Shown: piece by piece, positions 1 to 57,338 of the stretch
How positions within the stretch are numbered: the stretch's first letter is position 1
Layout of the letters: every line of letters starts with the position of its first letter
The notes under the pieces: generated by a model
What the model was told of the DNA's origin: nothing
Databases searched by the model: none
What the model saw: only the letters and a program-made list of their open reading frames with translations
Position numbers and translations under genes: made by a program
Origin: Cloeon dipterum
Lineage: Eukaryota > Arthropoda > Insecta > Ephemeroptera > Baetidae
Direction: 5' to 3'
NCBI RefSeq assembly: GCF_949628265.1
Contig: NC_088787.1
Coordinates: forward strand, 14,312,501-14,376,500
Length of the DNA: 64,000 nt

Positions 1-125
1 GGTAGTTTCGCCTCGGTGTAGCGCGAAGTGCCTAATGCACGAGCCTTTGCTCATAAAAACGCGTTCGCACGCGCTGCATTTGAATTTGCCCTGGTGCTCA
101 ATCACGCAAAGCGACCGCGCCAAGC
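1..125 (-). CDS. BTB gene A, alternative zinc-finger 3' exon 4 (partial, cut by window edge)
   Basis: Read on the minus strand, an acceptor (CCCTGCCAG) ends just before base 125. The frame opened by one incoming base plus GC reads LARSLCVIEHQGKFKCSACE and continues into one complete C2H2 finger (C-x2-C-x12-H-x3-H, ending IRHFALH) and a GETT linker before the window ends. Acceptor phase and the first-finger layout match the other zinc-finger exons of this gene. The nearer-consensus acceptor a few bases upstream (GCCGCACAG) would put a stop in frame, so it was not used. The exon continues outside the window, so its number of fingers is unknown. Confidence 0.72.
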
Positions 126-562
126 CTGGCAGGGACCGAGCTTTCCTGTGCGGCAAGTCTGTAAACAGTTAAGTGAACTTGGTTGTAGACAAATGGCATC
201 ACAAACATACAATTCATAACATACTAGCTAATTGGCCCCGCTGGGAAATGCTCTCTAGCTTCAGACTCATCTGAGTTTGCCACAGACTTGCGTGTGAAAA
301 TATGCATTCGATTAGGGTCTTTGATTGATCTGTACTCTCCACGAGAAAAGCAGCGTAGTACTTGCACTCATTATTATTGAAGGTGTGTAAATTCGACTTA
401 AAAATTGCCAGATACGTCAGGCAAATATATCAAATATGTAGCCTAGCCTTAAAAAAAAGAATAGGAAATTAGTAGTTTAGCGTGCTCGGCACGGGAATGT
501 TTGTTTTCTAGGAAAAGGCACAACTGATTCTTCGTCTCTTTCTCTTTTAGAGTGGCTGTAGT

Positions 563-903
563 TCACGACTTTTTCGATTGATCACCGCGGCTTCGCTTTA
601 GATGGACGTGGTCCATGTGGTATTTGAGCTGCGTCATGTTGCAAAGCTGCTTGCCGCACAGCTGGCACGTGGTCGAGCCAAGGTGGAACGGAAAATGCGC
701 TTTCAGGTTGACCAGCGTGTCGAAAACTTTGAAACACACTGAGCACGTCGTGCGGCCCAGGTGGAAATCGAAATGCCTAACACACGAGCTGCGGTTTTTG
801 TATTTGCGTTCGCAAGCGCTGCAATAAAATTTGCCGTCCTTCTCTATCACTCTAAGATCGGCGGCCGTCGCGTCAGGTTCCGCGGCGTACATGAACTCGT
901 TTT
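563..903 (-). CDS. BTB gene A, alternative zinc-finger 3' exon 3 (three C2H2 fingers)
   Basis: The exon starts after GTGTTTGCAG and codes about 113 residues to its own stop. It opens ENEFMYAAEPDATAADL, then has three C2H2 fingers: CSAC...H-x3-H, CSVC...H-x3-H and CQLC...H-x4-H. Fingers 1-2 and 2-3 are joined by short linkers, LGRTTC and LGSTTC. A basic tail follows. It would serve as the DNA-binding C-terminus of one splice isoform of the minus-strand BTB gene. Start phase takes one base from the last common exon (2868-2803). It lies 143 bases beyond its neighbour at 1047-1345. Confidence 0.85.
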
Positions 904-1046
904 CTGCAAACACCCACAAAACACACGGTTTGATCAGTGGAGCAAGAGGAGTGATGTGTTTAAGACTTGGTTTATTGCGTTTTAGGCGTAAAGGCGGCCG
1001 AGTCACTCTCGGCACAGAATTCACCGACAAGCGAGCGAGCGTCTTA

Positions 1047-1345
1047 TCAAATTTGGTGAATCTGGTGCACACGTTCGAGGTGCACCTTCAGGTAAAACTC
1101 CCTGCCGAACTTTCGCTGACACACAGGACACGTGGTGGTGCCCAGGTGGACGGCAAAGTGCTGCTTGAGCGCGTCCTCATGACCGAAACTCTTATGACAG
1201 ATGGAGCAAGTGGTTTTCCCTAAGTGGGTTGCGAAATGCCGCACGCACGAGCTTTTATTCAAAAATCGCCGGTCGCAAACACTGCAAGAAAACGCGCCGT
1301 CCTTCATTATGACCTTGAGAGTGCTCGAGTCCAACGGACCAACGT
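1047..1345 (-). CDS. BTB gene A, alternative zinc-finger 3' exon 2 (three C2H2 fingers)
   Basis: The acceptor TGTTCGCAG precedes base 1345. The exon reads DVGPLDSSTLKVIMKDGAF and then three C2H2 fingers: CSVC...HFATH, CSIC...HFAVH and CPVC...HLERVH. The stop follows almost directly after the last finger (HQIHQI). Finger 1 shares the LNKSSCVRHF stretch with its neighbour exon (NRSSCVRHF there), which suggests tandem exon duplication. Length 299 nt leaves remainder 2 on division by 3, as the phase-1 donor of the common exons requires. Confidence 0.85.
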
Positions 1346-1629
1346 CTGCGAACAGGCCAACCCACAGCTTTTAATCCTCACAAGCAAAATCTATCTAAGC
1401 AAGTTGGTTTGGTGGTTTTAATAAAATTATCGAGTTCTACCAAGTTGGATTCCGTGTAAAAATCGTTTTATTATTAAGTCTTTCTCAGAGTTTACACATT
1501 AAGGGCTGGTGCGAAATTAGACAACACAGCTTGATTGGATTGCATCTATAGCGTGCGTGCTCCTTCTTTTTCAAGTCCATATAATCGTTTATTTACAGAG
1601 CACGGTGTCATGCAGTATACGAGCGCTGT

Positions 1630-1907
1630 TTAAGTCGTTCCAGTCTCACACTTAAGAAACGCGTCGCCTGAGGGGATGCCGTGCACGTGGCGCAAGTGTC
1701 TTTTCATGTGGCTCTTTCGACTGAGCACGTAGCCGCATATGTAACATTTTGAGGTGCCAAAGTGGATGGCCATATGCTTTTGACATGAATCACGGTGGTT
1801 AAATGACTTTCCGCACAATTTACAAGTAAACCGTGGTAATGTTCCTTCCTGAACCTCATGTGTAATAAATTTTGATGCCATTGAGTGAAACGAGTGGGCC
1901 TTGGAAC
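1630..1907 (-). CDS. BTB gene A, alternative zinc-finger 3' exon 1 (two C2H2 fingers)
   Basis: First zinc-finger exon after the common region of gene A. The acceptor is TGTGTTCACAG. The product starts GSKAHSFHSMASKF and has only two C2H2 fingers: CKLC...HMAIH and CYIC...HLRHVH. By position they match fingers 1 and 3 of the three-finger exons, so the middle finger seems lost or never gained. It ends in an acidic, threonine-rich tail. About 0.9 kb of intron separates it from the common exon ending at 2803. Confidence 0.83.
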
Positions 1908-2802
1908 CTGTGAACACAAAACCAACTCATTTCACTTCAACGCATAACAAGTATTTTTTTTTCACTATTTTTTACTTTAAACCCTTTTCAATTGACTCGG
2001 ATCTCAGTTCGCGTTCACTCATCTCTTTCAGTTAACAGGACCAGTGCACACTTTAAAAGCGTTTCAATCAATTGGATAGTCACATCCAGTGCCTGTGCAC
2101 GCTTTCTCATAAATCTCTACGCCTGACTAGTGACGTTTGAAACTGGGTCCCTATCCAAATGCCTGTCTGATTCTTATCCTTAGTTTTCTTTTTCATTTTC
2201 GTATGCCTAGCAAGTTTATCGTTAGGAAAATATGCCCATGTAAAGAATACAAAAATAAACTAGCACACACCAAAACAGAGGAAAGGCGTGGTTCATTTGC
2301 GTTCAATCAGTGCCCTTCTACTTTGGAGAGAAGCAAATTCCTGACTCACTAATCAAATGCATGTTCAATCATGACATTGCGTCATTGGCAAGTACATTTT
2401 TTATATAATTTTGTCTGTCAAGAATTTCCCAAGTGGGGGCCATTTTATCATTAACTGGCATCCAGGAAAACCAAGCATGCTAAAGTGAAGTGTTTCTAAA
2501 AAGAGACCGCTACTAAAAGAAAACTCTTTCAGCTAAACCCTTATCCTGAACTAAAGTGATGGGAAGGTGTGTTAAATGGGAGGAGAAATCACTTGCAGCA
2601 CACCAATTTTTCCCAAATCCAGTAGATAGAGAACCTGGCCACAGTCTATCTCTCATTGTAAAAAGGAACTGATTTTGTAGGTTTGCATTGACGCAGAGAA
2701 ACATATGGAGCCAGCCAATTTGAACGGAAATAAGGAGCAGAATACCGATTTTGTTAAAAAAGGAATGAACCACGCCATGAGATGAATAAAATTTCGGCCT
2801 AC

Positions 2803-3959
2803 CTTGGATTCCTTCCTGTCCCATGCTTTCGTTTGATGGTCCTGCCATAACAAAGTTGCTCATATCACCTGCGCACATTACATTATTGATCAGTCTTTAT
2901 TAATTGTCTCAAACCAATCAATGTTACCAGATTCAGATGTTGACAACATATCCATAACGTTTCCACCAAATAAGGAGTGGTCAGAGTTTGATGCTCTGCT
3001 TCTACTCGTTGAGGTGGTTAAAATTAATTGATCACTTTTCTGAATTTTAGCAATAATGCTCTCCTGCTCTTCCACTGCGTCATCAGCACCCGAGGCCTGC
3101 TCATCGTCGTCATCGTCATAATCAGGTTCTGTTTTCAAAGGCACTTCATCCATTTGGTGTGATTCTCCTTCCTCTCCCTCTCCTCCCGAGTTAGCACCTG
3201 CTGAAACTTTAACATTGCAAGATGTCAATTGAAATTCCACATCAAAGATTAAACACGTACCTTGCGCAATTGCTTGTACTTCAGCAGGGCTAGCTGTTCT
3301 CGATGGTGATTGCCATTTTCTTTTCTTAGCTGCTGCGGGGGGACCTGTTCTTGTTGGCGTTGATGTTCTTTCGTCTGATTGGTATGGAGACGGGTGTCCA
3401 TCCTCGTCAAACTGAACTTCAGGGGCAGGTACTCTATCATCCTGCAGGAAAAACATCAAAATTTGCAACAAACTCGACAGAAACTTAAACCGATTGTACC
3501 TGTTGCTTGGCAGTCTTTTTAGTCTTGGTTTCAGAGTCTTTGTTACTGTTTGTGAGACCCTGAACTTGCAGCAGCTCTGCTGTGTGAAGGAATGATGCTA
3601 ACTGTTCTTGCTCCACGTTGACCTCTCCATTGTACATGAAGTCGACCAACGCCATGAGATCATCATGTGTGACATTACGGAAAATTATAACAGGGTGTTG
3701 GCAAGGATTTTCCTGAAATATTGACGGTGCATGTTAGTAATATTGTTCTGCAACCAGATAGAAGAAACAATAATACCTTGAATAAGTCTTTGAAATAGGA
3801 ACTGCACGCTGATAACAGCATTTTGTGGGCTGGGATTTTTTTTCCTTCGCAGCTGAGCGTGACATCGATCAGGTCTTTGTCACTCCGTAGAGATTCGAAA
3901 GCACTTGTCATGTGCCGTACATAGTTGTTCCATCGTAACGAGTACTGCTGACTCGCCAT
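2803..3959 (-). CDS. BTB gene A, common 5' exons (BTB/POZ domain and acidic linker)
   Basis: Five coding exons, 3959-3777, 3712-3500, 3441-3261, 3197-2928 and 2868-2803, sum to 913 nt and leave one base for the zinc-finger exons. Residues 1 to about 115 are an insect-type BTB domain: [13 protein letters not shown] at the start, the [20 protein letters not shown] dimer core, then [10 protein letters not shown] and [14 protein letters not shown]. Such domains homodimerise transcription factors such as Tramtrack, Broad and Lola. A basic KKRKW stretch (possible nuclear signal) and an acidic D/E-rich region follow. The ATG has a strong context (CCACCATGG) and sits 4 bases after an acceptor, so a 5'UTR exon lies upstream. 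Exon 4 has a possible tandem acceptor (CAGCAG). Reading through the 2928 donor would give a short BTB-only protein ending at 2890. No exact orthologue is assigned. Confidence 0.87.
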
Positions 3960-4264
3960 GGTGGCTGTAAACAAATTAAAAAACATCTGTCAAGTTATTT
4001 ATTTCGAAACAAAAACATTAACTAACTGATAGCGTCTATGTTAAAATAAGTCGTATTCTCGTATTTACAAGCTTCGCTTTTAATGTGAGACTTGCGTAGA
4101 TTCCAATTAAATTAATATTTGATAATATTTGATACATTTGAGTTAGAAATTAAATGATCACGAACAACGACCAATGAATCAAGTGTGCTACGTCACGGCG
4201 TGGGCTCCCCGCTAATGGGCACAGAATCCGGAGCCATGTCAGCAACGATATCGAACGAGCGCCG

Positions 4265-4334
4265 GCCGCCATTTGATTGAGCCCCATCCGGGGTCTCCGA
4301 GAGCCGCCATTTGGGTACATACGCCAAATGGAAA
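4265..4334 (-). promoter_or_regulatory. Gene A promoter-proximal YY1/Pho-like motif cluster
   Basis: On the minus strand CAAATGGCGGC occurs at 4275-4265 and 4313-4303, and a related CCAAATGG on the plus strand nearby. The motif fits the YY1/Pleiohomeotic consensus (AAnATGGCGGC). The stretch after the second site, AAATGGCGGCCGGC followed by CGTTCGAT, also occurs in front of gene B. The cluster lies about 0.3 kb upstream of the BTB start codon, as expected for a promoter or 5'UTR exon. The transcription start itself was not located. Confidence 0.5.
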
Positions 4335-4349
4335 GTTTCACGGGAACTA

Positions 4350-6543
4350 AAAAAGTAATGAAATCTGGGACCCCAGGTACAAAGCTCTTAAAAATATAAA
4401 ATTTTGGGTGAAAAATAATCAGTAAATTACTTTTTGTCAGTGACTCGGGTAACTCAGAGGAGAAAACTCAAATTCTGAGGAACGCTAATGGGCCTCTGGG
4501 CCTGAGCGTCACTATCGGCGGGGCAAGCGGCTTTTGAGGTCGATTGCCCGCGTGAAATAACTTGGCTCTTGCGAACTTACAACTCGGTTTGAACGATTAA
4601 TTTTAGCAAATATGCATGCAACAACAATTAAGGAAATCAATTCTTACCCTAAATTCACTTTTGGCGACTTATTCTATGCAAAAATTCGTGTTTGCCGTCC
4701 TCCGCCACATAAAAGATCCCGCTCCGTCAACAATTTTCTCAACGACCAAGAACAGAGTGTAACGGGAGTTTGCGGAGTGCGCTTGCGTTGGAAGCAATCT
4801 ACCAATAGCCTCACTATTCAAAGTCACGTGATCACTCAATAGCAACGCAACTTCCCTTTTTGCGACTTTTCTCTAAAGGATCCTTTCCAACGAATCAATG
4901 ACTAAATGGCCGCTTTTACTGACAAGACCGTCCAAGTGACCAAAGCATTTTGTTCTTCTGTGACGTCAATTTAATTTCAATTCAGTAAATAATGATGATT
5001 CCTATAGTAGCTCTAACACAAATTGAGCATTAAATGAATGTTGTATAAAAATGATTTAAGAATCATTTAACGTGCGTGCCTGGTGAAATGGGAGATGCTC
5101 AGCTTAAAATCACTTCAGATGAATTAATATCTTAACTCTTTCACACGCAAAATGTGGGTGCGAAGTGTAGTGATCAAAACTGCATAATTATATTCACAAA
5201 ATCTACAGGGAGCTAAGCAGTTCCTGCAGTTTATATTCGTGTATAAAAATGCACTAAATTTGATGTTGAACTTCAATTTAAATGAAAGTTCAAGTGAAAA
5301 TTCATGTCACTTTTGTATGAGACCAATTGAATATTGGTTTATTACAGGAAACTTTATTTCATTTATTTCCAGTCAATGTCAGTCTTAATTGGTGCAGTCT
5401 TAGACGAAAGTCATCAGTCACAGCCTCTACAGCATAGAAAGAACCTGCAAAAATATATTTATTTAAAAAGCTGTCAATAGCTGCCTTACGCAAAATGATT
5501 TACACCTTTTTAAGCAAAAGATAGGAAATCTGAAAATAATTTTGGTGTTTCATAAATATAATTTTAATAAAACAAGTATTTTAATTTAGAGCTGATAATC
5601 AAATATAATTTTAATATTTTTTCGACCTAATGTTAGAAATGATTTTTTACTTGCCTGTCACTATAGATAAGAAACCTGCGTTTTAGTCTGCAAACCTAAC
5701 TTGTCCTCAAAATTAATGATGGATGTAAAACATTGGTTAACATAAAATTGATAAAATTCTAGAACGTCCTTGTAATTTTTGTTGTTTATTCCCTTGCACA
5801 GTTATTTTACAGATTAAGGATTTTATAGCTATGGTTACATTATCCTTTTGTTTCACACAGTGTGCAATCTTCCTACTCTTAAAAGTTTCCACCACAAAAT
5901 CATAACCCTCTTGATTGCCAATCAATTTCCTACAGCACAAGGGACCTGATTTTAGGAAAAATTCTGCTGTGGTAACTTTTAAATGCGGAGTACACAGTTA
6001 AGTGATGGTCTTAATGTATGCCTTAAAAATAACAAAAATTTTAGACCCCCCTTCAAATGCAATAATCCGGGAAGCTGGCACAAAACACTGAAATTGCCGA
6101 GTCTACACAAAACTGAGGTGTAAAATATTTTCAGCACAAATAGTAAGTTGCGAATTGACATTAAAACATTAAAATGTGTCACGTGTTTGAAAAGAAGACC
6201 TACAATCTTATAGTCGCGAGTAAGCATTGAAGTTCCCTGCGTTTAGATTTCTCAGATTTGATGATAAGTAATTCTTATGGAGAAACAACGAATGGATCTT
6301 GTACATTTGGTGGTGTAGAAGACATTGGTAGGAGAACTGTCTCTAGCTATCCTGGTTTGCTAGCTAGCTATAAAGACCACTATTCTGCCTCATCCTCTCA
6401 CTGTCTCATCCTTAATAAACCTAGCCCCACATAAAGAAAGGTATCAATAAAATTCTCTCAAAGAAATTAAAAGTTTCTGGACCTCTCCTTAGCTTGAACA
6501 GCCCCTTGACAGAAGCGAACTTACCATCTGATTGCGGGAACTT
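4350..6543. other. Non-coding stretch between gene A promoter and hnRNP gene
   Basis: About 2.2 kb without a convincing reading frame. It should hold the upstream part of gene A (possible donors GTAAGT on the minus strand at 4580-4575) and the 3'UTR of the hnRNP gene. The sequence is AT-rich from about 5 kb on. I see no RNA gene or transposon here. Confidence 0.5.
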
Positions 6544-9635
<3,092 letters not shown>

Positions 9636-9639
9636 TTTC

Positions 9640-11480: not shown

Positions 11481-11485
11481 TTGGG

Positions 11486-11603: not shown

Positions 11604-11833
11604 CCGTTCGATCCCATCGGCCACCGTGTACTGCCTATGGAGGCCTTAATCAATGTCGTTATTCTATTTTTATGACATCGACTGGCGTTCCATATTGAAA
11701 GGAAAATTATTTTTCACGTCATTTTCCACGTTTTCGAATTACACACATTTCACTCATTATGTCATGTATATACATTTAGGCCAAACATGTTTGTTGAGAA
11801 ATAAAATTTCAAAAATATTTTGTTCCAGCCACC

Positions 11834-12930
11834 ATGGCGAGTCAACAGTACTCGTTACGATGGAACAACTATGTACGGCACATGACAAGTGCTTTCGAAT
11901 CTCTACGGAGTGACAAAGACCTGATCGATGTCACGCTCAGCTGCGAAGGAAAGAAAATCCCAGCCCACAAAATGCTGTTATCAGCGTGCAGTTCCTATTT
12001 CAAAGACTTATTCAAGGTTTGCATTGTCGGGAGTAAGGTTGATTAGTATTTTAAATTTTTACTTAACTCTAGGAAAACCCTTGCCAGCACCCTGTTATAA
12101 TTTTCCGTAATGTCACATTTGTTGATCTCGTGGCGTTGGTCGACTTCATGTACAATGGAGAGGTCAACGTGGAGCAAGAACAGTTAGCATCATTCCTCAA
12201 CACTGCTGAACTGCTTCAAGTACAGGGTCTCACAAACAGCAGTAAAGATCAAGAGAAATTTAGAAAGACTGCCAAAGAGGTAATTAACAGAAGCAACAAA
12301 CCAGTAGATTGGCACTTTAAATTTAATTTTTGTTCCATTAGGACGACAGAGTACCTGGTTCCAGTTCTCAATTTGATGAAGATGGCGAGGAAAGAACGAC
12401 GACGCCAACTAGAACAGGTCCTCCTGCAGCCAAGAAAAGAAAATGGCAGTCGCCAAGCAGAACAGAAAGTCCAGCTGCTCTCCTCGAGTCCCAAACTGCG
12501 CAAGGTTGGTGTTTCCTCAGTTTTGAAACCATAATTCATTAATATTGATTTCCAAACCTCTTTAGTGAGTTCTGGTGGTGACGAGGATTTGCAGACTATT
12601 GATCAAGTGCCTTTAAAAACTGAAACGCCAGAATATGATGATGAGGATGACGTGCAAGCGGAATCTGGAGGGGAGGACACAACTGATGAACAAGATATTG
12701 TCCAGAAAATCCAGAAAAGTGATCAGCTGGTGTTGACATCTAACAGAAATAGGACTTCCAATAATGAACACTCGCTTTTCGGCAACAATTCTATGGATAT
12801 GGACTCTGGTAAGTTCTGCTTCATTGATTTTGAATACAGCATTAATTAACGTTCATCTTTGCAGGTGATATGAGCAGTTTTGGTATGGCTGGACCATCAA
12901 ATGAAAGCATGGGCCAAGATGGAATGCAAG
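11834..12930 (+). CDS. BTB gene B, common 5' exons (BTB/POZ domain and acidic linker)
   Basis: Five coding exons, 11834-12016, 12073-12279, 12342-12504, 12566-12808 and 12865-12930, sum to 862 nt with one base left over for the zinc-finger exons. The first 61 residues are identical in protein to gene A. The second BTB exon differs at a short patch ([11 protein letters not shown] versus NVTHDDLMALV). The later part has [14 protein letters not shown], an acidic block ([15 protein letters not shown]) and a conserved GPSNESMGQ close to the last common donor. The product should be a nuclear BTB transcription factor whose DNA specificity depends on the 3' exon chosen. The start has CCACCATGG four bases after an acceptor, as in gene A. 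It resembles lola/ttk/broad-type genes; no one-to-one orthologue is claimed. Confidence 0.88.
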
Positions 12931-13777: not shown

Positions 13778-14139
13778 GTTTTGTGTGGCGGAAAGAGCGC
13801 AAAACGAAAGTATACGAAACGTTTAACGGCACATTTCAGTGCAGCGTGTGCGGGAATTCATTTCAGACGAAGAATCAAGCTTATTACCACTATTACAACA
13901 AGCATGAGTGTAATAACCCAAGTCCGTGCGCACGAAAAACTAAAGTTAACGACTTGAAAAACGGTCTGTTCGAGTGCAGTGAGTGCGGTGAGAAATTTGA
14001 GACGAAGAGCAAAGCTTACTATCACACGCGCTTCCATGACGCCAAATCCGAAATTGTTTGTCGCCTTTGCAAAAGACAGTTCAGCACCTACGGTAATTTG
14101 CAAAATCACATTAAGAACTTCCATCAGTATGGCCAATAA
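13778..14139 (+). CDS. BTB gene B, zinc-finger 3' exon 1
   Basis: Acceptor GTTTTGCAG, about 120 residues to TAA. Three C2H2 fingers: CSVC...H-x4-H, CSEC...H-x3-H and CRLC...H-x4-H. Fingers 1 and 2 are separated by a long basic stretch (more than 20 residues) instead of the short G-K-T-T-C-type linker of most other exons, and both carry a QTKNQAYYH/ETKSKAYYH motif, which points to an internal finger duplication. The intron from the last common exon is about 0.85 kb and shows nothing else. Confidence 0.85.
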
Positions 14140-15077: not shown

Positions 15078-15637
15078 AGCAAGAAACATGGGTTCCTGCT
15101 ACTTTGACAGACTCAAACGTTTGCGAAGATCCCTTAGGAAATCTAGACGCTTTTGTTAAGCAGGAAGTAGTTGAAACTGATTCAAACAATTTCAATCCAA
15201 ACGAAAAATTTCTCTTCGTGCAGTTGGAGAAGAACTGTGCCATAGACAAATTAGCACAAGCTAATTCTGTGCCTGGAATTTCCATAACTGTGCCAAAAGT
15301 GCTGAAAGTAATTTCGCTGCCCAACAACACATATGCATGCAGCAAATGCAGCAGGACTTCTATGTCAAAGAAATCTATACGAAATCATTACGGCAGGGTC
15401 CATGATCGTCAGCTGCCTTGCACTGTTTGCTTAGAAAAATTTACTAGCAAAAAGATGCTCCGCGAGCATTTACTGGCGCACTCTGGTCTTGTCAGGTGCA
15501 AACTGTGTGACAAGAACTTTGAGAGTTTTGCTTTGCTCAAAGTCCATTTCGCTAAGCACAAGAAAGTAAGAAGGAGAAAGAAACCCGCTCCTAAGTCGAA
15601 TCCTACCGTGTCTGGTCCTGCGATCAATATTGCATAG
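15078..15637 (+). CDS. BTB gene B, zinc-finger 3' exon 2
   Basis: Acceptor AATTTGCAG, about 186 residues. A spacer of about 90 residues rich in Asp, Glu, Asn and Val precedes three fingers: CSKC...HYGRVH, CTVC...HLLAH and CKLC...HFAKH. The tail KKVRRRKKPAPKS is strongly basic and could be a nuclear signal or add DNA contacts. The 0.9-kb stretch before it holds a GC-richer patch (about 14.81-14.96 kb) of unknown nature. Confidence 0.85.
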
Positions 15638-16063: not shown

Positions 16064-16611
16064 AAACGGTCGACTACCCAGGTGTGTTAATAGATATGGC
16101 AGCTAAAATGTTTAGCCCGCGACCGGAGTTTGAACCACGCATCGTGCCTCTGGTCGACGGGACATATTCATGCAGCCTCTGTAATAGGACTTACATCAGC
16201 AAGATGCTTTGCAAGTCTCACCTCGCGTATCATCTGGGGAAAACGATGTGCCATATCTGCGACAAGGTTCTCTCCTCTATGCTTAATCTCAGACGCCACA
16301 TCAACAACTTGCACGGAGAACAAAGTCCTCTCGCAATGAAGATTCCCTGTAAAATTTGTCGCAAGATGATGGTCCCTCTCTCTCTATCTTGCCACATCAA
16401 ACTGAAGCACAAGATTGACCCTGATGTTCTCAAATTGAACCTGGACCCAGTTGTGCTCTTGGACAAAGAAGAACTAGCATCGGAGCTCGCCCGAAGAGCA
16501 AATCTCTTAGAAGCAGAGCCTGAGGGCAGGCCTGCAAGCGTCGTTTACAAGGGCCATGGGGTTTGCAAAATTTGCTCCAATAGGAAGTCATGTGCTCACT
16601 CAACATATTGA
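16064..16611 (+). CDS. BTB gene B, zinc-finger 3' exon 3
   Basis: Acceptor CTTTTGCAG, about 182 residues. Three zinc fingers are complete: CSLC...HLAYH, CHIC...HINNLH and CKIC...HIKLKH. The third has a shortened loop (CRKMMVPLSLSCHIKLKH). A further CKIC pair near the C-terminus (CKICSNRKSCAHSTY) has no proper His pair, so it is a degenerate fourth finger or a different small metal site. A leucine- and glutamate-rich segment of about 50 residues separates it from finger 3. Confidence 0.83.
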
Positions 16612-16962: not shown

Positions 16963-17378
16963 ACCCCGATGAAGATCTCCCGGTCGCATCAGACATGGTG
17001 GCAATTCATCACAGCATTTTTTACGCGGGGGCCAACGCGGACGTGTCCGAGATGAAAGCGACAATGCGAATTATCGAGAAGAACGATAAATTCATTTGTA
17101 GCTTTTGCGAGCGCGAGTTTTCTCAGAAGGAGAGTTGTCGGTCACACATGGCGTCGCACTTGGGCAAAACAACGTGTAACATTTGCAATAAGTCATTCAG
17201 TCGAATAAATGAACTGAACCGTCACCTGGCCGTGCACGAGGGCAAAACGGTGTGTAAAATATGCTGCAAGGTGCTCAGCAGCGGCAAAAGTCTGAAGCGT
17301 CATCTCATTTACGTGCATGGTGCCCAGCAAAAACAACCGTCAGTGCAAATTAAGGACGATACCAATGACTCGCAGTGA
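16963..17378 (+). CDS. BTB gene B, zinc-finger 3' exon 4
   Basis: Acceptor ACATTTTGCAG, about 138 residues. The lead-in DPDEDLPVASDMVAIHH is acidic. Fingers are CSFC...HMASH, CNIC...HLAVH and CKIC...HLIYVH, joined by LGKTTC and EGKTVC linkers. A short polar tail ends in NDSQ. An AATAAA polyadenylation signal follows at 17434, so this exon probably ends its own transcript. Confidence 0.87.
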
Positions 17379-17572
17379 TCCTGCCAACCCCGAAATGTGA
17401 TGTGACTTTTCTTGAGCCCATTTCTTGTGTCTGCAATAAAACATTCTCAGATCTGAAATTCCAGATATAGACTGACTCTAATTTTAAATGCACAATGACA
17501 AAAGAAGTTATTCCCATAACTGATTTGAGATAACTGAGGAGATCAAGTAGCTCATTTTAGATTTTTTTGCAG

Positions 17573-18039
17573 AGCTTGTGTCTCCATTCAACGAAGTGTC
17601 AGAGCCGAACGAAAATATTAACTTCGTCTATACCGATGCCGATCCTCTTGCGATTGATGAACCGAGGAATTTTATTAACAAAGACGAGTTGGTCAGCAAC
17701 CAGGACGGCCGATACTCCTGCAGCATATGCAACCGCGACTTTGCTTCTCAAAGGCTTTATCATTCGCACCTTGACAAGCACCAAGAGTTGACCCCTAGCA
17801 TAAAGTGCAATAAATCGTTCAGCACAGTTAGAAAACTCAACTTGCGCATGGCGAATCGCCGAAAGACGCTCAAGTGCAATAAATGTGGCAAAACGTTTAG
17901 CACTTCCTCTTTGCTCAGACAGCACTTGGACATACACAAGGGTAAGAACTGGTGTAATCTTTGCAACAAGGGTTTCAGGCTTCAGCGCCAAATTCAGTTT
18001 GATAAAGTATTTAAAATTGATCCACCAACGCTAGACTAG
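17573..18039 (+). CDS. BTB gene B, zinc-finger 3' exon 5 (partly decayed fingers)
   Basis: Acceptor TTTTTTTGCAG, about 155 residues with an open frame. Finger 1 (CSIC...HLDKH) and finger 3 (CNKCGKTFSTSSLLRQHLDIH) are intact. Finger 2 (KCNKSFSTVRKLNLRMANRR) has lost one zinc cysteine and both histidines. Finger 4 (CNLCNKGFRLQRQIQF) has the cysteine pair but no histidines. The frame stays open and an AATAAA follows at about 18064, so it may still be used, with weaker or altered DNA binding. Confidence 0.78.
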
Positions 18040-18377: not shown

Positions 18378-18721
18378 ATGGACCGGATGTGCATTTCCTT
18401 TTGTCCGGCGGGTACGAGTCGGCGCCGGCGTCGTCAGGCAAAATCATTTCGTCCCAGGGCAAATTCATTTGTTCAGTGTGCAATCGCACTTTCTCGCACA
18501 AGCGGTCGTGTTGGACACACATGGCCATGCACAACGGCCGCACCACGTGCTCCGTTTGCCAAAAGACGTTCAGCAGTTTGTCCATCTTGAGAGCGCATTA
18601 TGCGAAACACGAGGGCAAAACCGTGTGCTCGATCTGTAACGTGAGCGTCAGCACGGCCAAAAGCTTGAAACGCCACATGACCAGCGTTCACAACATCCCA
18701 GCAGACGAGTCCAGCTCGTAG
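18378..18721 (+). CDS. BTB gene B, zinc-finger 3' exon 6
   Basis: Acceptor GGTATTTTCAG, about 114 residues. Starts DGPDVHFLLSGGYES and has three C2H2 fingers: CSVC...HMAMH, CSVC...HYAKH and CSIC...HMTSVH. The linkers are NGRTTC and EGKTVC. Finger 3 reads CNVSVSTAKSLKRH, lacking the usual aromatic residue after the second cysteine. The layout is closest to exon 4 at 16963. Confidence 0.87.
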
Positions 18722-19437: not shown

Positions 19438-19823
19438 GGGAGCTTGAAATGAGCGAGTTCGTAATTAGAGAGGAGGACGAGGAAGGGACAAAAATGAACT
19501 TGGCGCAGTTAGAGGCCGTGGGGGTGCGAATGCTAGAGGCGGCCAACGGCCGTTTCCTGTGCAGCGTGTGCCACCGCGACTACACCAACAAGGGCGCGTG
19601 CGTTTCTCACTTGCAGACACACGCCGGTCACACGACCTGTGGCGTCTGCGGTAAAACTTACAACTCGATGGGCGACCTGAAAAAGCACCTCAAAGTGCAT
19701 CAGGGCAAGACGGTGTGCCCTGTGTGCGGCAAAGTGTGCAGTCGAATTTCAAACTTAAACGCGCATTTGAGAAATGTGCACAAAGTGAACGTGAACTTGT
19801 CCTCACAGACGAAACATGAATAG
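19438..19823 (+). CDS. BTB gene B, zinc-finger 3' exon 7
   Basis: Acceptor TTGGTTTCAG, about 128 residues. An acidic lead-in (REEDEEG) is followed by three fingers: CSVC...HLQTH, CGVC...HLKVH and CPVC...HLRNVH. Linkers are AGHTTC and QGKTVC. The short tail ends SSQTKHE. GC-rich codon use in the fingers contrasts with the AT-rich DNA around it. Confidence 0.87.
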
Positions 19824-20277
19824 TTATCGGCCACAGTTGTTTGCAACGGTTTAACTCTTAAGCGATTATTCACATTGTGGTCATTTAAAATGATAGAAAT
19901 AAAATGTTGACTGGTTTGTTTTAAGCAGTGGCCTACTTTGCGAATATCAAACGGAAGTATTTTTATTCCTACAACCCCGGAAATCATGGAAAATTCTTGG
20001 GAAATTCAATGATTTGGATGCGCTTGATTTTATTCTTGATTTTATCGATTAGTATTTTAACTCTTTAATTATTTAAAAAATATGCCCCAATTCAAGCAAA
20101 TATTTGACGTGAAACTTTGCAAAAATTGCGAATACCGTGGAGTATTAATCAACAGATTGCAATTTATTGTCAGTGAACCCCGAAATCACCATTTATTTAA
20201 AAATGATCATAATGCACTCGCAAATCATTTGAAACTTCAGTCAGACAGTGAGTGATGTGCGTTCTTCCCGTTTGCAG

Positions 20278-20684
20278 AAAATGAAAATGGCCCATTGATT
20301 TATTCGTCACACGAGCCCCATTGGCCGCTGCAGGACCCGCCGGCCACGTCGCTGCCCCGGTTTGAACCAGAACCAGCGAACCCTTTAGTGGTGAATGTAG
20401 ACAGGGACGCAGGGATTGTGGTACGCGATGGACGTTTCAACTGCGTGACCTGCGGAAAAAGTTACGCGGACAAGAGAAGCTGCAAATTTCACATCCTATC
20501 GCACCGCGGCGAAACCACTTGTCATATTTGCAACAAAGTGTTCGCTCGCTTAGAGAATTTGCGACGCCACCTGCATAAACACGAAGGCTCTATTCGATGT
20601 CCCATGTGCTCCAGCACTTTCAACAGCAAATACACGCTCAACAGCCATTTCAAACTGTGCAAAGAACGAAATAATCCGTGCTGA
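20278..20684 (+). CDS. BTB gene B, zinc-finger 3' exon 8 (last finger C2HC)
   Basis: Acceptor CCGTTTGCAG, about 135 residues. Lead-in SSHEPHWPLQDPP, then fingers CVTC...HILSH, CHIC...HLHKH and CPMC...HFKLC. The last finger uses Cys in place of the final His (C2HC). The next exon, at 21156, has the same lead-in pattern (SREPYWPQEDP), the same C2HC ending and the same intron sequence before the acceptor, so the two are a tandem duplicate pair. Confidence 0.87.
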
Positions 20685-21155
20685 GAGATCGCAAAACTCA
20701 CTTTGATTAAAAGCAAGTGGAATCAGTTAATGGTACCACAACGTCGACACTTGAACAAATAGAATCTTATTATTGGTTGTTATTCATTGGTCGGATATGG
20801 CAACTGTTTATTACACATATTTATTTCCGCTAACCGACTTAAAAACTCTGGCAATGTTTTGTAACAAAAGAGCAGTTATGGCTGATATATGTTCCCTTCG
20901 GTTATTTCATTTCTTAACTATCGTATTTAGAATGGTCTCCATAACTGTCGTGCCTCGCAATATCAAATTGCTGGCGGGCAAAAGCACTAATAATTGCAGA
21001 AATGTCGCATGCGACGTACATTATGAGCTAGAATACTTTCATTTTTCTTTAACCCAATCGAAGCCTGTATTCAGTTAAAATTAAAAAGTGCATTGTCGCG
21101 TGCTGCCTTACTCTCTCGTCTGTCAGTAAGTGATGTGCGTTCTTCAAATTTGCAG

Positions 21156-21565
21156 ACGAGGATGAAGTATCTTTGGTTTTCGAGTCGCGCGAACCCTATT
21201 GGCCGCAGGAGGATCCGCTGGACTTGTTAGAGTCCGGGCTGCCGCCTCCGCCGCAGCAAAATGAGCAGTCTGTGCACGCGATCGGCATGGTGGTGCGCGG
21301 AGGCCGATACCACTGCCTCTTCTGCGGCAAGGGGTACTCCGACAAGAGCATCTGTAACACTCACATTCGCTCGCACCTCGGCGAAACCACGTGCTACATC
21401 TGCAACAAGACGTTCGCACGCACAGAGAACCTGCGACGCCACTTGCAAAAGCATCAGGGCAGCATTCGGTGCGCTCGCTGCTTCCGCACTTACGGCAGCA
21501 AGTACTCACTCAGTTCCCACATGAAAATGTGCCTCGCTGATAAAAACTCTTTTCCGCCCAATTAG
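21156..21565 (+). CDS. BTB gene B, zinc-finger 3' exon 9 (last finger C2HC)
   Basis: Acceptor AAATTTGCAG, about 136 residues. Fingers are CLFC...HIRSH, CYIC...HLQKH and CARC...HMKMC, the last again C2HC. It aligns along its length with the exon at 20278 (for example FARTENLRRHLQKH versus FARLENLRRHLHKH). GC content is clearly higher than in its twin, mostly at third codon positions. An AATAAA lies at about 21799. Confidence 0.87.
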
Positions 21566-22140
21566 GCAATTAGGTCTGTGCTTGACCAAGACTTAAAACG
21601 AATTTCATCTTAAAATACTACATATTTTATGCGGTTGGTGTTGTACTACTAGTTATCCTCTGATATTCACAAGCGACTGTAACTACTTTGTCAAATTGCA
21701 ATCTTATATTTCCTTTGCGAATAGGTCAATATTTTAAACTCAATTTTTTTCTATTTCACATAATGCGACGAATATAGTTATGACAAACTGAAAATTTCCC
21801 AATAAAACCTGAACTGTGAATGCTAGAAACAGAATTTAAATCGTTTTACTGAACTACACTAATTTGTGAAAAATGCAAGGTGCTTTGGAGCTCAATTTCA
21901 TGTGTAAAAAAATAACCGACAGGATATACATGGTTTCCTGTAATGAACAGTTTGGATTGCCAGGTTTCGAAGGGGACCAAAACACCAGCAAAAAAAAACT
22001 GTGATATAAACGTAACACCGGTTGTGGGACCAAATTTCCAAAACAAGCCCCCCATTGACTGACAGCAGGAAAACGCCCCATTGCCAAAACCAAATAAGAC
22101 GCTGTGAGTTGGTTGCTGATGGTGCACTTCTTTCTTGCAG

Positions 22141-22472
22141 ATGCGATCGCAAAATTGCGCCTGAAATGGGAAGGAGCCGACGCCGGCAGGCAGCTCAAGC
22201 CCAAGTTTTACATAATCGAGAAAAACGGGCGCTTTTCTTGTAACGCGTGCAAGAAAGATTACTCGGATAAGAACAATGCGAAGAAGCACTTGCGCTCGCA
22301 CGCCGGCGAAACGACGTGCCACATTTGCCACAAGTCGTTCGGCACGGTGCCCCGTCTCAATTACCACCTGGCCATGCACGAGGGCAAGACGCGCTGCCCC
22401 GTCTGCTTCAAGGTGTTCGGCTGCGTCTACAGCCTCAAGGGTCACCTCAAGTCGGTGCACCGCCTCCAATGA
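22141..22472 (+). CDS. BTB gene B, zinc-finger 3' exon 10
   Basis: Acceptor CTTTCTTGCAG, about 110 residues. Lead-in DAIAKLRLKWEGAD, then fingers CNAC...HLRSH, CHIC...HLAMH and CPVC...HLKSVH. The stop comes three residues after the last finger. Finger 1 shares DYSDKN with the YSDK/YADK of the two preceding exons, so it may belong to the same duplication series. Confidence 0.86.
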
Positions 22473-23690
22473 CCGCCCTTCCGCCCCTCGCACTCCTGCG
22501 GCGGCAGATCCACCCGCCGGCATTGATTTCGTTCCAAACGACGACCGCCGCGCGGGTTTCCTTCCTGCCTCACGCAAAATACAACTATCGAACTACGCAT
22601 ATTATTAAGATAGGGTTGACCGTTTTAGGCGCTGTTTCAGTTTTGTCAGGGGTCCTTAACGTTGGAAGCAATTTTCTTCTGATTGGGAACCTTAAAAAAA
22701 TACATTTTTGTCGTATCATTCAAACAGGCTTTTATTTTTGCTTAAACTCGCAAAAAGCCGTCTAAAACGTTCAACCCTGCACACTCATAATCAGCCCTTG
22801 GTTCCTAAATTTACTCAAACTGGATCAGATGAGCTTTGCTTTTTAAACTTTTTATTTGTTAATTCCTAGTTGAGGTTTTGCGCATTTCGGACCGGAAATT
22901 GAGCAGTTCCTTGTCTATTTTTGAGCGACGATCGAAAGTTCCTATCATAAGAGAGATACGCCTATTTTTGTGCAAAGTGGATGCATCCACCCAGCGAGTT
23001 TCTTTGAGTATTTTTCAATTAACATATTATTACGTCTGAAATGCACGAGCCTCCAACTACGCTGGAGCAAATTGTGCCCGCTTTAGGGAATTTTGCTGCC
23101 ACATTTACTTTGGCGTCCTTATAGAGGTGACTGTGAAAAGAAAGTCTTGTAAATGATAGCTAGACTTTGGTGATTGATTGCTTATTTTCCGCTTCTTTAT
23201 AGTAAGATGTTAATACGTTTAAAAACGAATTATTATTAAATGATAACGTTACGCATTATCATGCCAATTGTGGGAATAAAGTGATAGTTCTTGTTAGCAT
23301 ACATAGACCGTACTGGTGGTTTTATTTTGTTTGTCACTGAGAGAGTAATAACATAAGCCACCCTTCCATTCCGTTCTTTCTGCGAAGAACGACGAAATAC
23401 ACTTCCAAATTCTGGCTCTCAATTAAAGCCTGGGTATTTTTCCTTTGTTTTAATTTGGATACTAGATTGATTTCAACTGGTACTAAAATTAACACACAGT
23501 TTACACACAATAATTGTGGAACCTGCCCTTTACTTGTTAGAGAGCATGCTAGTTGCACATTTCCGTCCCCAGGGTTGCCTGTTTTGTACAAAGTGGTAAA
23601 GCAGCTGTCCAAGTTAATAATTAGAAATTAATACCCGATGTTGATTTTGAGTAGCCAAAAGTAAAGTGAGACGTTCTGGTGTTTTTGCAG

Positions 23691-24037
23691 AATTAACGAA
23701 GCGCCGGCCGCTTAGTGCAGAGCAGGAGTCCCGCTTATATCTGTCCAATCTGCCGTTTGTTGATATGCGCGCCGTCGAGGTTAATGGCCGCTTCATATGT
23801 AGCTTTTGTGGGCGGAATTACTCGCGCAAAGACGACTGCAAGACACACATGAAGTCGCACCTCGGGAAAACCACGTGCACGGTGTGCAAAAAAACCTTTT
23901 GCACAGTGTCGCACTTAAAAAAGCACATGGAGATGCATTCGGGACGCACCAAGTGCAACGTCTGCGGCAAACTGTTCAGTAGTGTAGGCAACCTGCAAAC
24001 CCACCTCAGGGTGGTCCACAACACTGTCTCCTATTAA
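23691..24037 (+). CDS. BTB gene B, zinc-finger 3' exon 11
   Basis: Acceptor GTTTTTGCAG, about 115 residues. Begins ELTKRRPLSAEQESR, then fingers CSFC...HMKSH, CTVC...HMEMH and CNVC...HLRVVH with linkers LGKTTC and SGRTKC. A plain three-finger member of the series. The next zinc-finger exon is 2.6 kb away, the largest gap in the array. Confidence 0.87.
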
Positions 24038-24039
24038 AT

Positions 24040-26636
24040 GCTCGTCCGCTCCACGGGCAGACGTTGCAGCCGACAACCAGCAGCTGTGTGAAAAACTTAT
24101 CTACCTAATAATGAGTAGTATTACATAATGTCAGGACGTGAAAAATGCAGCCTTTTCACCTTCTTGATTTTCTTACGCCTCCGCAACTCTGCCAAATATT
24201 TATACGAGGAGATTACAAAAATTTCTGTTCCAACTGAATATAATATTTTTGATGGATTTTAACTTTGATCCAATGATTTTGATCTTCCACCTCAGCACAT
24301 TGACGCTTTGAGAATAATTTTGAGGACAATAGATATTAAAATTATTTTTATTTCGTTAGGTTAAGTATATGAGACATCAGAATTTTTTATTTTAATCGAA
24401 TCTTGATTTAATTTCATTTGCAAATTCACCTTAAGCTCGCACTAAGGTTGCCAGGGTGGTCATAAAAGATACCAGTATTTTTATATCTGTCATCTGGCAA
24501 CCTCAAGTTGCGATTGATACGATGTCTTTTATGCCTATTTCAAAGAGTGCATGAAAATAACACAGTCAAGTAAAGTTACAATCCTGATTAAATTTCCTCA
24601 AAGCTTGGAAGAGCTAAGGTTCCTAGACTGACAAAATACTATGTAACCTATATGGAAATGAGTTGAGCAAGACACTATATGAAGTATGAGGGAAAACGGA
24701 TTTAAACTCGCTGTTTAAAAGATGCATCTAGACCTTATTTCGTCTTCATCAATCATGGGACTCTTACCGCCTTTGAATCCCTGGTAAAAGACAAAAAGAA
24801 AGGAATTTTAAACGTCCAGGAAAGTCCGTTTTCCGTACCAAACCTCCGCAATAAAACGGAGTTTTGTTTTTTTCCATTGGTGGTTGCAAGATATAAATAA
24901 TTCGATGGATTAAGTTAAAATTTAATGCAGCTACCTCAGCGAAAAGTAAATCACGCCAAGGTTCTTGCATTGAACTAAATTATTTACTAAAATAATTTGA
25001 ATGTTTTCAAAGGCGAATCGATACTTGTTCCACATAATTTAGATAACTCATAACCTTGAAGCTGTGTGACAACTTATGCAGGCCAGAAGTGATCCTCATG
25101 AAAGTAATTCTAGATTAACATATTATATACAAACTTAATGATACGAATATATTATGATATACGATATGATACATGGTATTTAGTATACAGAAATGTTCGC
25201 CTTCAATATGTGACGCTGAACTTTGTCTAGCTTAAAAAACGTACGCATTTAGTTTTAATGTCGGGTGTTTTATACGTAATTTTGTTCTACGTGTAGGCAA
25301 TAGTTTTGATAGCAACTTTGGTTTGTAAGCGCTTGTTCATTAAACTCAGGAACCCAACATGCGAATAATATTATCCTCTTTTCATTATTCGTCATTTCAC
25401 CTTGATTAATTAGCAGAAGCTGTTTCTACCTGTCACATTGACCCAATGTGATCACGTGAATTTATCATTCTTTCAGTGCACCGACAGAGCAAAAACCCCA
25501 CTACAAAGCAAATAATAAAACGGAATGAGGAAAATTACCAGAAGTTCAGTCATATAGCTCGAACTTGACGTGAACAGTGAATGGAAAATTTTTAAGACTG
25601 AATACTCAGACAAAGCTGGCACTATATAAATCTCACGAATACGTTAGAACGTTTCATCTCTTGCAATCCTCGCTAAAATCTTCACTGAATAGCAAAATAC
25701 TGTTTTTTTTTTCTTAATAATCGTTACCTTCTGCCTGAAATTCCTCTATCAGTGGTGCCTTTCCCAAATCACGTGCGTTTTAATAGTCAGGCACGCGGAT
25801 AATGTGTGATAAAAAATATCATGCCTCCAAAGCAAGCCTCACTAATCAGCAAGCCCGTAAATTAATAATCAGCCCTTCTGCCGCTAAGGAGAGTAGGCTG
25901 CCGCTATGTGAGTTAAGCTAACTTAACTATAAAAGCTGCGCCAACCATTAAATGTATGCTGGGTCCTCCCAGCTTTCTTTCTTTTTTTGTAATATGATAA
26001 TGACTGACAAAATAGATTTTATGTCTCCCATAAGCAAGCAAATAAGTAATGAATGACTCAAGGTGCTTTAAATCTGAACAAAATAATGTGAAGCTCGCTG
26101 TTTCGGGCCCGCAGTCCTCATCAGCAGAACTTAACATGTTAAGCGAAATTCTGAATCATTGCGGTCGTTGTGAAACGTCCGACTGGATTCATCACTGAGT
26201 GACCTTTTAATTATGGTTTCTTTTCCTTTTTTTCTCAAGAGTTGTACATCATAAATCATTTAGAAAAATCCACTAAAACAACGTACTAGCCGCCAGAAAA
26301 AGGTCAGCTGAAAATACGGAGCATAAATTGTTGCCAGCCTGAACCCTCTTTATTTATTTTATTTTAGTGCCTCATTGTTTGCTTGCTTAATCTTATGTGG
26401 TCGATTTTTCACTCTTTGTTTTGAAAAATCAGATAAATTTGGAAACAAAAAACTGGCTTTGTGCGCATCCAATATTGGTGCATTTGCAGAGTTTTAAGCA
26501 AACCCTAAATATAACGATGAAACTATATATAAAAAGCACTGGCTCTTGGAGTAAAAAATCTCCAAGTGTTAGATTAAAACTTAGATAGGATTGCGGTTCG
26601 CGAATGAGAGCACTAATGGGCTGTGGCTTTTTGCAG
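24040..26636 (+). other. Long intron gap in the gene B array
   Basis: About 2.6 kb between zinc-finger exons 11 and 12. No reading frame here looks like a finger exon. A short inverted repeat sits at about 24443-24508. The stretch is mostly AT-rich, with a few GC-richer patches around 25.9-26.1 kb that I could not identify. Confidence 0.45.
24443..24508. repeat. Short foldback element (terminal GGTTGCCAG / CTGGCAACC)
   Basis: AAGGTTGCCAG at about 24445 is mirrored by CTGGCAACCTCAA at about 24495, and the inner arms pair imperfectly. The total is about 65 bases, consistent with a very short inverted-repeat element or a hairpin. No target-site duplication was seen with confidence. Confidence 0.5.
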
Positions 26637-26848
26637 AGGCGCCGCGTCCGCTGTGGAGCGATAGCGAGGGCAAATTCATATGCAGCCTGTGCGGCGCCAA
26701 ATTCATGCACAAAAGCTCGTGCATGAGGCATTTCGCGGTGCACGAAGGCCGGTCCACTTGCCCAGTGTGTCTAAAGAACCTGTGCCACCCTGATGCCCTG
26801 AAGAAGCACTACCTGCGTCACCACGCGCCTCATATGACGCAGTATTGA
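26637..26848 (+). CDS. BTB gene B, zinc-finger 3' exon 12 (two fingers, shortest)
   Basis: Acceptor GGCTTTTTGCAG, about 70 residues. The lead-in is only EAPRPLWSDSEGKF. Two fingers follow: CSLC...HFAVH and CPVC...HYLRHH, with linker EGRSTC. Finger 1 (FMHKSSCMRHF) resembles the gene A fingers at 1047 and 563 (KSSCVRHF) more than most gene B fingers. It is the smallest module in the array. Confidence 0.84.
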
Positions 26849-27245
26849 CTCGCCCCTGGCCTATAAATGCAGTGAAATAACATTCGCATTTGAGGAAACG
26901 TTTTTAAGTCTCCCAGTGTAATCGTCATAATGTGTTTTGTTTTAATTTATTCTGTGGAGAACCAAAAAGCTGTCAGCAGTATTTTAAGTAATGCATTTTT
27001 GCCACTCTGTGCGAATTTTTTACATTCCATAAGTGTACATGTAGAATTACAAGCGATGAAATAGATTAGGTGTTATAAAAAAATAAACAATAACGACGGT
27101 CTGGACAAGGAGGAAAAATAAAAATATCCGGATTTGATTTCAATGAAAAATAGCGAGGTCTTATTGATGACACAATTTTAACATATATAGTGAATTCGGT
27201 GACACAAGCAGACAGTTGTGGAAACTGAAGTCTTTTTTTTTCCAG

Positions 27246-28261
27246 ACATATCCACCAAATGCGAGGACTATTCCGAGGACTTTGCCAATAACAGTGCGGG
27301 CCAGAGCGAGATCTGGCAAATCGTACACAGCTTTTCCATCTCCAATGACCAGTTTGAGCAAAGTATCGTGCCGAAGTCCTGTCATCCGCGTCGCAGAGTA
27401 TACACAGTGTTCAAGCCGGCTGACAACTTAACCAACAGTCCTTATTACGTTGAAGCCGATGCCGAATTTACTGATGATGATGATGATGATGAACCACTGC
27501 CTGCAGAGTACGAATCTCTGACAAATATCGAAGAAATTGATTCGGAATCTGGCCGGTCACTCCGATCGGCTAGTTTAAACAGATTAGGGGAAATGCAGCC
27601 AATTGTAGATCTGGGCCTTCGCCTCTCTGTTAACGATAATGAGCTAAATGCGCGTGATTCCAAACCTCAAGTCGCTGATGCTTTGAACGGTGACGCGGAA
27701 TTCCAAAGGAGGCTGGAGCCCAAATCAACGTGGCAGGTTCCCCAAAATGACATGACATTGAAGGTGGAAAGAAAGAAGCCAGGGCCAAAACCAAAGAAGG
27801 GTCCGATAGACCAAAATAGTGGTAGAAAAAAGCCAGGACCGAAAGCAAATGACGTTACACCAAAAATTGCTAGGAAGAAAGCGGGCGCAAAGCCGAAATC
27901 AAACCAAGTGGAGAATGTCTCAAAGCCAAACAAAAAGTTGGTCCGCAACGAAAATAAAATCTCCAGTCAGATTAGGAACGAGAAATGCGAAAAGAAGAAA
28001 TCTGATCAAAAGTCAAAGGTGGATAGGAAAACCGCAAAAGCAAATGCGAAGCAGGGCAAGGACTGGCTGTGGGTGATTGAACGCAATGACCAATTTGTTT
28101 GCAACAAGTGCGCTCGCACATTCCCCACCAGAACACACTGTTTGACACATCAGAACAAGCACCGGATGACTTACTGCTGCGTCAAATGCAACCGCTGCTT
28201 TATCAGCAAACCTCGTCTTTTGAGGCACAGGCTGGCGTATCACTCCAAATCAAGGAAATGA
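27246..28261 (+). CDS. BTB gene B, zinc-finger 3' exon 13 (long, basic repeat region, two fingers)
   Basis: Acceptor TTTTTTTCCAG, about 338 residues, by far the longest module. An acidic first part (DDDDDDE about residue 80) is followed, at about residues 175-220, by three lysine-proline repeats: ERKKPGPKPKKG, GRKKPGPKAND and ARKKAGAKPKSN. These resemble AT-hook or linker-histone-type minor-groove binders without matching the strict PRGRP core. A long Lys-rich stretch and two C-terminal fingers follow: CNKC...HQNKH and CVKC...HRLAYH. An AATAAA follows at 28326. The exon could give an isoform that combines finger binding with non-specific DNA contacts. Confidence 0.85.
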
Positions 28262-28509
28262 GCCCCTGTAACCAATTCAAACAAATGTAGTTCAAAACTT
28301 TTAATTTCCAACAGACTTATGAAGGAATAAAACAATTTAATTAATATTATGTGACTATGAATAAAACGCTAGATAAGCGTAGCCGTGCTTTTTATTTTAC
28401 CCTGCCCTTGCACTCATGTCACACGCACTTAATCGCATGAATACACACAAATTAGATATAAATTTTACTGAACTTTCGATAGCATTAAATATATCCATAC
28501 TTTTTACAG

Positions 28510-28853
28510 CTGAGGACGATGTAGAACTGATCGAATTAGACGAAGAATACGTTGAGGGAGAGTATGAAGACGAACTGGATGATGAGTACGGTGAAGAATA
28601 TGAGACTGAAAACGCCGATTATTTTGCTGGATATCAGGGTGCTGACAATCCGGGAAGCTTGGACGATAACGCATCTCACGCTTGTGAAAAGTGCGGCAAA
28701 CTGTACAAAAGCAAGACATCCTTGATCCACCACTACAACGTCCACTTGGGCAAGACAACATGTCCAGTGTGCAACCAGGTGTTCAGTAGAAGACCGTACA
28801 TGCTCAATCACGTGCGGCAAAAACACCCTCAAGTGGACAAGCCATACGAGTGA
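28510..28853 (+). CDS. BTB gene B, zinc-finger 3' exon 14 (last, acidic, two fingers)
   Basis: Acceptor ACTTTTTACAG, about 114 residues. The first 40 or so residues are intensely acidic and Tyr-rich (ELDEEYVEGEYEDELDDEYG), a possible activation or interaction segment. Two fingers follow: CEKC...HYNVH and CPVC...HVRQKH, linker LGKTTC. It is the last zinc-finger exon I can see before the next gene, 0.6 kb away. Confidence 0.84.

Positions 28854-42626: not shown

Positions 42627-57338
<14,712 letters not shown>

Follow-up and report, generated by a model that had tools for sequence, protein, structure and literature searches.

Divergent BTB genes with arrays of putative alternative zinc-finger 3' exons in the mayfly Cloeon dipterum

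When two genes of the same splicing design adjoin on opposite strands, with compatible arrays of alternative exons, are the exons bound to their own head or does cross-strand joining arise, as mod(mdg4) leads one to ask? A natural test is offered by a stretch of 64,000 nucleotides (nt) of Cloeon dipterum (assembly GCF_949628265.1, contig NC_088787.1, positions 14,312,501 to 14,376,500 of the forward strand; hereafter the window). Two divergent genes, A on the minus strand and B on the plus strand, each have a BTB head and an array of C2H2 zinc-finger 3' exons, i.e., the tails. The original prediction, made from the letters of the window, had described them as a head-to-head pair of the lola and mod(mdg4) kind. 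The observation is confirmed and is more extensive than first noted. Most likely, the alternative 3' exons are used within each gene, in a family multiplied in mayflies. In other words, A and B are very probably paralogous arthropod (Tramtrack-type) BTB transcription-factor genes, whose alternative 3'-terminal exons form separate arrays, each spliced in cis to its own head.

Common exons, finger exons and public gene models

Genes A and B have five common coding exons each, of matching layout. Those of gene A (minus strand) are coding exon 1 with the ATG and the first part of the BTB domain (3777..3959), exon 2 with the remaining BTB (3500..3712), exon 3, a linker (3261..3441), exon 4, an acidic linker (2928..3200), and the last common exon (2803..2868). 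The corresponding exons of gene B (plus strand) are localized at 11834..12016 and 12073..12279 (BTB), 12342..12504, 12566..12808 and 12865..12930. The common exons sum to 916 nt in A and 862 nt in B, i.e., a remainder of 1 on division by 3 in both genes, and the last base of both sets is the spare base that had been predicted, a G. The BTB/POZ domain was matched by Pfam (PF00651, 93.3 bits, cut-off 20.5), as was C2H2.

The finger exons were located by a C2H2 pattern scan. Gene B has 14 of them, every one within the window and on the strand of its head. Gene A has 18, also on the strand of its head: three complete and one cut in the window, the other 14 wholly before its base 1, out to -15227 (negative coordinates are counted from there). 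The predicted numbers, at least four for A and 14 for B, are thereby borne out and that of A is raised. Acceptors were chosen with a simple AG score of our own, all three phases being allowed and the search being confined to the open frame upstream of the first finger. The top-scoring acceptor is in phase 1 in 32/32 finger exons of A and B (chance 1/3 each, p ~5e-16). Remainder-2 lengths and phase-1 acceptors had been given as two regularities; the phase is found in all exons, and both are one property. Two sites deserve mention. For B01 (13778..14139, plus), the acceptor 13778 matches the start of the tail P0015 of Neocloeon triangulifer, while 13763 scores higher; for A06, the site used by RefSeq model P0030 also scores below another one. 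All these sites are in phase 1.

Among the matches listed, six RefSeq models join head B to seven of its 14 tails: B02 (15078..15637; P0008), B03 (16064..16611; P0003), B04 (16963..17378; P0002), B05 and B06 together (17573..18039 and 18378..18721; P0001), B09 (21156..21565; P0004) and B13 (27246..28261, with a long basic linker; P0009), all on the plus strand. In P0001 an internal donor of B05 leads to B06; one finger of B05 is degenerate, i.e., finger residues are lost. Head A is joined in RefSeq to the finger tail A06 (about -1646) and to P0037, a tail lacking fingers. The latter is localized inside the finger array (about -10.6 to -10.05 kb) and has a sub-threshold match to DUF4806 (19.6 bits vs. 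a cut-off of 25). In an older predicted protein, P0024, the tails A01-A03 are chained behind part of head A; A01 (1630..1907, minus) is otherwise defined by the scan and its acceptor. B07 (19438..19823, plus) and B08 (20278..20684, plus) are, as tails of B, predicted from sequence only.

Paralogues, tail ownership and tail conservation

A search of the Cloeon genome found three further BTB heads with finger arrays, i.e., gene C (contig C5:9.127-9.155 Mb; 21 finger exons found), gene D (27.56 Mb of contig C2, the contig of the window; 8 found) and gene E (10.56 Mb of the same contig; 2 found). In total, 63 finger exons were found for A-E in Cloeon, mostly with two or three fingers per tail. For C, D and E, 25/31 finger exons have their top acceptor in phase 1. 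The N-terminal motif is YSLRWN in heads A, B and C and YSLKWN in D and E. In the accessible part of Bonchuk 2024 (PMC11426971), TTK-type BTB domains are defined by an N-terminal FxLRWN motif and by assembly into hexamers; with reference to the motif, the aromatic Y replaces F in all five heads and K replaces R in D and E.

A-E form one clade in a first BTB tree (100/100; outgroup rows from 3 of the 8 loci tried) and in a second one (99/96), with Ephemera as sister. The tree of the common region places Ephemera outside A, B and C (99/98) and groups the Cloeon and Neocloeon copies of A (93/95) and those of B (90/92); an earlier version, with barnacle rows and a long gene D branch, had given only 62/89 for the mayfly clade. 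The position of D and E comes from the BTB tree only, and Ephemera danica (Ephemeridae) is represented by the one protein found, while Cloeon and Neocloeon are Baetidae. No Neocloeon D or E is present among the matches listed. These trees indicate that the BTB gene family multiplied among mayflies, to at least five members, and place the separation of A, B and C between the branching of Ephemera and the divergence of Cloeon from Neocloeon.

From Neocloeon, at least 10 tails of B, 18 of A and 46 of C were retrieved, and the model numbers of C reach X50. A tail starts with a G-first codon in 74/74 Neocloeon tails (all 74 being counted) and in 48/48 distinct tails, out of 65 outgroup tails, of hymenopterans and thrips. 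Judging from these tails, the phase-1 spare-G junction is an old inherited trait of the whole family.

The comparison of the 63 Cloeon tails with the 74 Neocloeon tails gave 29 pairs of reciprocal best hits: 11 A-A, 8 B-B, 9 C-C, one C-B and no A-B. These numbers argue that the tails remain with their own head between the two species. On the plus strand, reciprocal best hits concern, e.g., B06 (P0007), B10 (22141..22472; P0006, 96%), B11 (23691..24037; P0005, 87%) and B14 (28510..28853; P0013). On the minus strand, they concern A02 (1047..1345; P0019), A03 (563..903; P0018) and A04 (P0023), which is cut by the window start (1..158, its end being at -155) and beyond which A05-A18 are localized. 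For two of the 32 A and B tails, A10 and B12, the best match is in the other gene, although non-reciprocal and with near-equal scores. Several C tails have their best match in B, and the nine C-C pairs are few for 21 Cloeon and 46 Neocloeon C tails.

The same ownership was looked at on trees of the tails having at least two fingers and a core of at most 110 residues. In the two-species tree (114/137 tails retained; 20/109 inner branches starred), the label changes are 7 for A and 10 for B, vs. 26.6 and 21.9, respectively, in shuffles, and none of 500 shuffles is as low. This tree holds near-copies from both species, thus the labels cluster partly by that alone. The Cloeon-only tree of A and B tails (31/32 retained; 5/28 branches starred) has 5 label changes vs. 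10.5 in shuffles, again with 0/500 as low. Both trees are poorly resolved. In the two-species tree, B12 and B14 are placed among A exons: B12 (26637..26848, plus), which has an 83-nt inverted match (76%) to A04, groups with A02, and B14 groups with A06. It seems that the arrays grew mostly inside their own locus, from some shared ancestral tails. The idea of an inverted duplicate of the entire design can thus be kept for the heads and not for the arrays, since the finger exons are grouped by locus to a greater extent than under shuffling of the labels; with the same reservation about resolution, an inverted duplication of the whole array is not favoured by either tree.

The clearest candidate for an old tail is A01, with 58-60% identity to bee tails over 53 residues and 76% to Ephemera over 58. 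On the side of recent changes, five Neocloeon tails of gene A (P0031, P0032, P0033, P0035 and P0036) have the single long Cloeon tail A06 as their best match, which looks like a lineage-specific multiplication of exons.

The DNA contact positions of C2H2 fingers are numbered -1, 2, 3 and 6. Between the two species these positions are the same in 87/92 cases for A (9/11 pairs), 70/88 for B (8/8 pairs), 54/80 for C (8/9 pairs) and 3/16 for the C-B pair, the three pairs with unequal finger numbers (A06, A14 and C20) being left out. Within a locus, all contact sets are distinct (18/18 tails for A, 14/14 for B and 21/21 for C). This pattern fits mostly stable, differing DNA targets, provided that the fingers bind DNA as expected. 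An arms race with fast-changing fingers was also considered; it is not supported for A and for most of B, given the contacts kept, while B02, B09 and B13 changed much and gene C changed more.

Own arrays or a shared repertoire

The association of BTB and C2H2 domains, the constant phase of the acceptors, the RefSeq joins to the own head, the reciprocal hits in the own locus, the distinct contacts and the mayfly clade all favour cis-spliced arrays. One BTB head with its linker would be joined, via the fixed phase-1 spare-G junction, to a single C2H2 tail, out of 14 in B or 18 in A. Each gene would yield a family of putative transcription factors having a common head, by which they may form multimers, and different DNA contacts. 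The tail would be chosen by alternative splicing with polyadenylation, and the tails that appear in no gene model are predicted to be used in the same manner.

Several results weigh on the other side. The rule of one tail per product is broken by P0001 (B05 to B06) and by Neocloeon P0017, in which A14-like fingers are followed by A15-like fingers. Among the matches listed, the Cloeon RefSeq proteins cover 7/14 B tails and 1/18 A finger tails; the remaining ones are known from sequence, from a Neocloeon relative or from the older chain model P0024. The predicted joins of heads to tails stand on public models and sequence. To our knowledge, gene-model pipelines do not report cross-strand joins, thus the absence of such joins in the models is no test. 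A polyadenylation signal [poly(A)] is found within 500 nt past the stop in 26/32 A and B tails, vs. 62% at random points (p 0.017); this counts in favour of the arrays, but the enrichment is weak. Finally, contacts are poorly kept in B02 (4/12), B13 (3/8) and B09 (8/12).

It is unlikely that A and B are a single trans-spliced locus in which each BTB head takes finger exons from both strands, as in mod(mdg4). The original prediction had stated that any finger exon fits either BTB module. The junctions of A and B are indeed frame-compatible, and mod(mdg4) joins exons from both strands in Drosophila and Danaus according to the available part of PMC4667647. As a pointer to cross-strand joins the statement was too strong: the junction phase is inherited family-wide, thus compatibility is by itself no argument for A-B joins, and none of the 29 reciprocal best hits is an A-B pair, a single one being C-B. 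Moreover, the same part of PMC4667647 assigns trans-splicing of the mod(mdg4) type to Diptera and Lepidoptera and describes the relatives in Tribolium, Apis, Camponotus and Daphnia as cis-spliced; the paper nowhere contains the term Ephemeroptera.

A stronger form of the same idea is suggested by coding exon 1, which forms a 202-nt inverted repeat (98%, 3775-3976 vs. 11817-12018). In this exon, A and B differ at 2/61 codons and at 0/21 comparable fourfold sites, vs. 44/88 codons for identical residues in exons 3-4 (Fisher 1.2e-10). In exon 2, the first 41 codons differ by two synonymous and three amino-acid changes, beyond which the similarity stops sharply. The similarity does not exceed that of shuffles in intron 1 or in the 200-nt upstream region; in introns 2-4 a slight similarity is kept. 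At residue 28, A and B both have K in Cloeon and both have R in Neocloeon, a pattern that concerted evolution would give, although at a single site.

The presence of a near-identical exon beside an unrelated intron raises the question of how paralogous heads stay alike. A general synonymous constraint is not a favoured explanation: between A and C, 22/48 identical-residue codons of the same exon are different. Ordinary conversion is expected to take the 60-base intron along, yet intron 1 is unrelated; the likeness may come from a copy made by way of spliced RNA, from two distinct tracts or from a constraint peculiar to these two genes. One could go further and regard A and B as one trans-acting repertoire, in which an active process keeps the heads identical (as though they were copied via spliced RNA or cDNA), tails of either strand reach either head, and two heads and 32 finger tails make one pool of co-assembling factors. 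This is quite improbable, and separate cis-spliced arrays are preferred here also.

It is very improbable that each finger exon is a zinc-finger gene in its own right, located beside two BTB genes. Every finger exon has its own stop, often with a poly(A) signal, and the older model P0104 contains the fingers of B07 and B09 without a BTB domain; nevertheless, phase 1 gives the best acceptor in all 32 exons and RefSeq splices tails onto BTB heads in two mayflies. An assembly artefact is hardly credible in spite of the 98% identity of the inverted exon 1 copies, since exons 3-4, introns and arrays are strongly different, both genes are present in Neocloeon, and A and B tails apparently share one contig in another assembly. 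The latter is deduced from P0024 (A tails) and P0104 (B tails), which share a contig of 1,239,537 bases, taken as one contig of another assembly; the Neocloeon models of A and B are on different contigs (8,372,279 vs. 9,041,796 bases). Independent finger genes and an assembly error, the outcomes named beforehand as able to overturn the prediction, are thus not supported by the RefSeq joins and models.

Known systems and neighbouring genes

In the accessible part of PMC11426971, 17 of the 20 lola isoforms of Drosophila have different C2H2 fingers. As in A and B, a single BTB head goes with many alternative C2H2 3' exons. The arrangement of lola, in which the common exons of the BTB head are spliced to a single C2H2 3' exon out of many, is found in the mayfly genes, part of the tails being read from the genomic letters. 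Thus the lola-like and mod(mdg4)-like design that had been proposed is upheld by the anatomy and the RefSeq joins. The mayfly differs by its five paralogous loci, its inverted neighbouring pair and its tails of mostly two or three fingers. Trans-splicing has been reported for lola, whereas the mayfly genes are known here from sequence and models.

The mod(mdg4) gene of Drosophila and Lepidoptera has, in the available parts of PMC4667647 and PMC11426971, a BTB head and about 30 tails, with exons distributed over the two strands of a single region. Head, number of tails and use of both strands of a region are comparable in the mayfly. On the contrary, the tails of mod(mdg4) are of the FLYWCH type, and no FLYWCH was found in 9 proteins scanned nor among the domains precomputed for the 120 matches listed, which cover part of the tails. 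In addition, the opposite-strand array of the mayfly has a BTB head of its own.

Outside mayflies, the closest relative among the matches listed is a gene of hymenopterans, thrips, termite and katydid, with the same BTB head and several isoforms per species. Its NCBI names are automatic («broad-complex core protein isoforms 1/2/3/4/5(-like)», «bric-a-brac 2-like» and the like). Its hymenopteran and thrips tails have the same G-codon junction (the 48 distinct tails counted above), and one tail type is common with A01. The difference is that it apparently occupies one locus, vs. five in Cloeon: by eye, the models of one species are apparently on one contig in Frankliniella occidentalis, Thrips palmi, Leptopilina boulardi and Camponotus floridanus. 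Those of Hylaeus anthracinus are apparently on two contigs, which may come from clustering.

Broad-complex, tramtrack and fruitless of Drosophila also combine a BTB head with alternative finger tails, in far fewer numbers. The likeness is one of description, and a link to br is suggested only by the automatic NCBI names. A BTB head with alternative finger tails is stated for many TTK-type genes in the accessible part of Bonchuk 2024 (PMC11426971). The design is thus known from lola and mod(mdg4), and its expansion to five loci, two of which form an inverted neighbouring pair, is a variant of it; no description of this expansion was found in the literature searched, as judged by titles and the starts of abstracts. 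It provides a case of one splicing design multiplied from apparently one locus in other insects to five loci with their 63 finger exons in Cloeon, and the tails retrieved for one Neocloeon gene (C) alone are at least 46.

Between heads A and B, on the minus strand, are localized an RRM open reading frame (8304-8789) and glycine-rich open reading frames (together 6630..8789; open reading frames and Pfam). They are outside the BTB system and are presumably hnRNP-like. Since the RRM gene sits between the heads, A and B are divergent but not direct neighbours, i.e., the orientation of the predicted head-to-head pair is correct and its adjacency is not. Elsewhere in the window, a gene with a BTB domain and a SPOP-type BACK domain is found at 43157-43708 on the minus strand (Pfam), unrelated to the finger arrays, as well as two tRNA genes on opposite strands, at 32859-32931 (plus) and 34080-34152 (minus).

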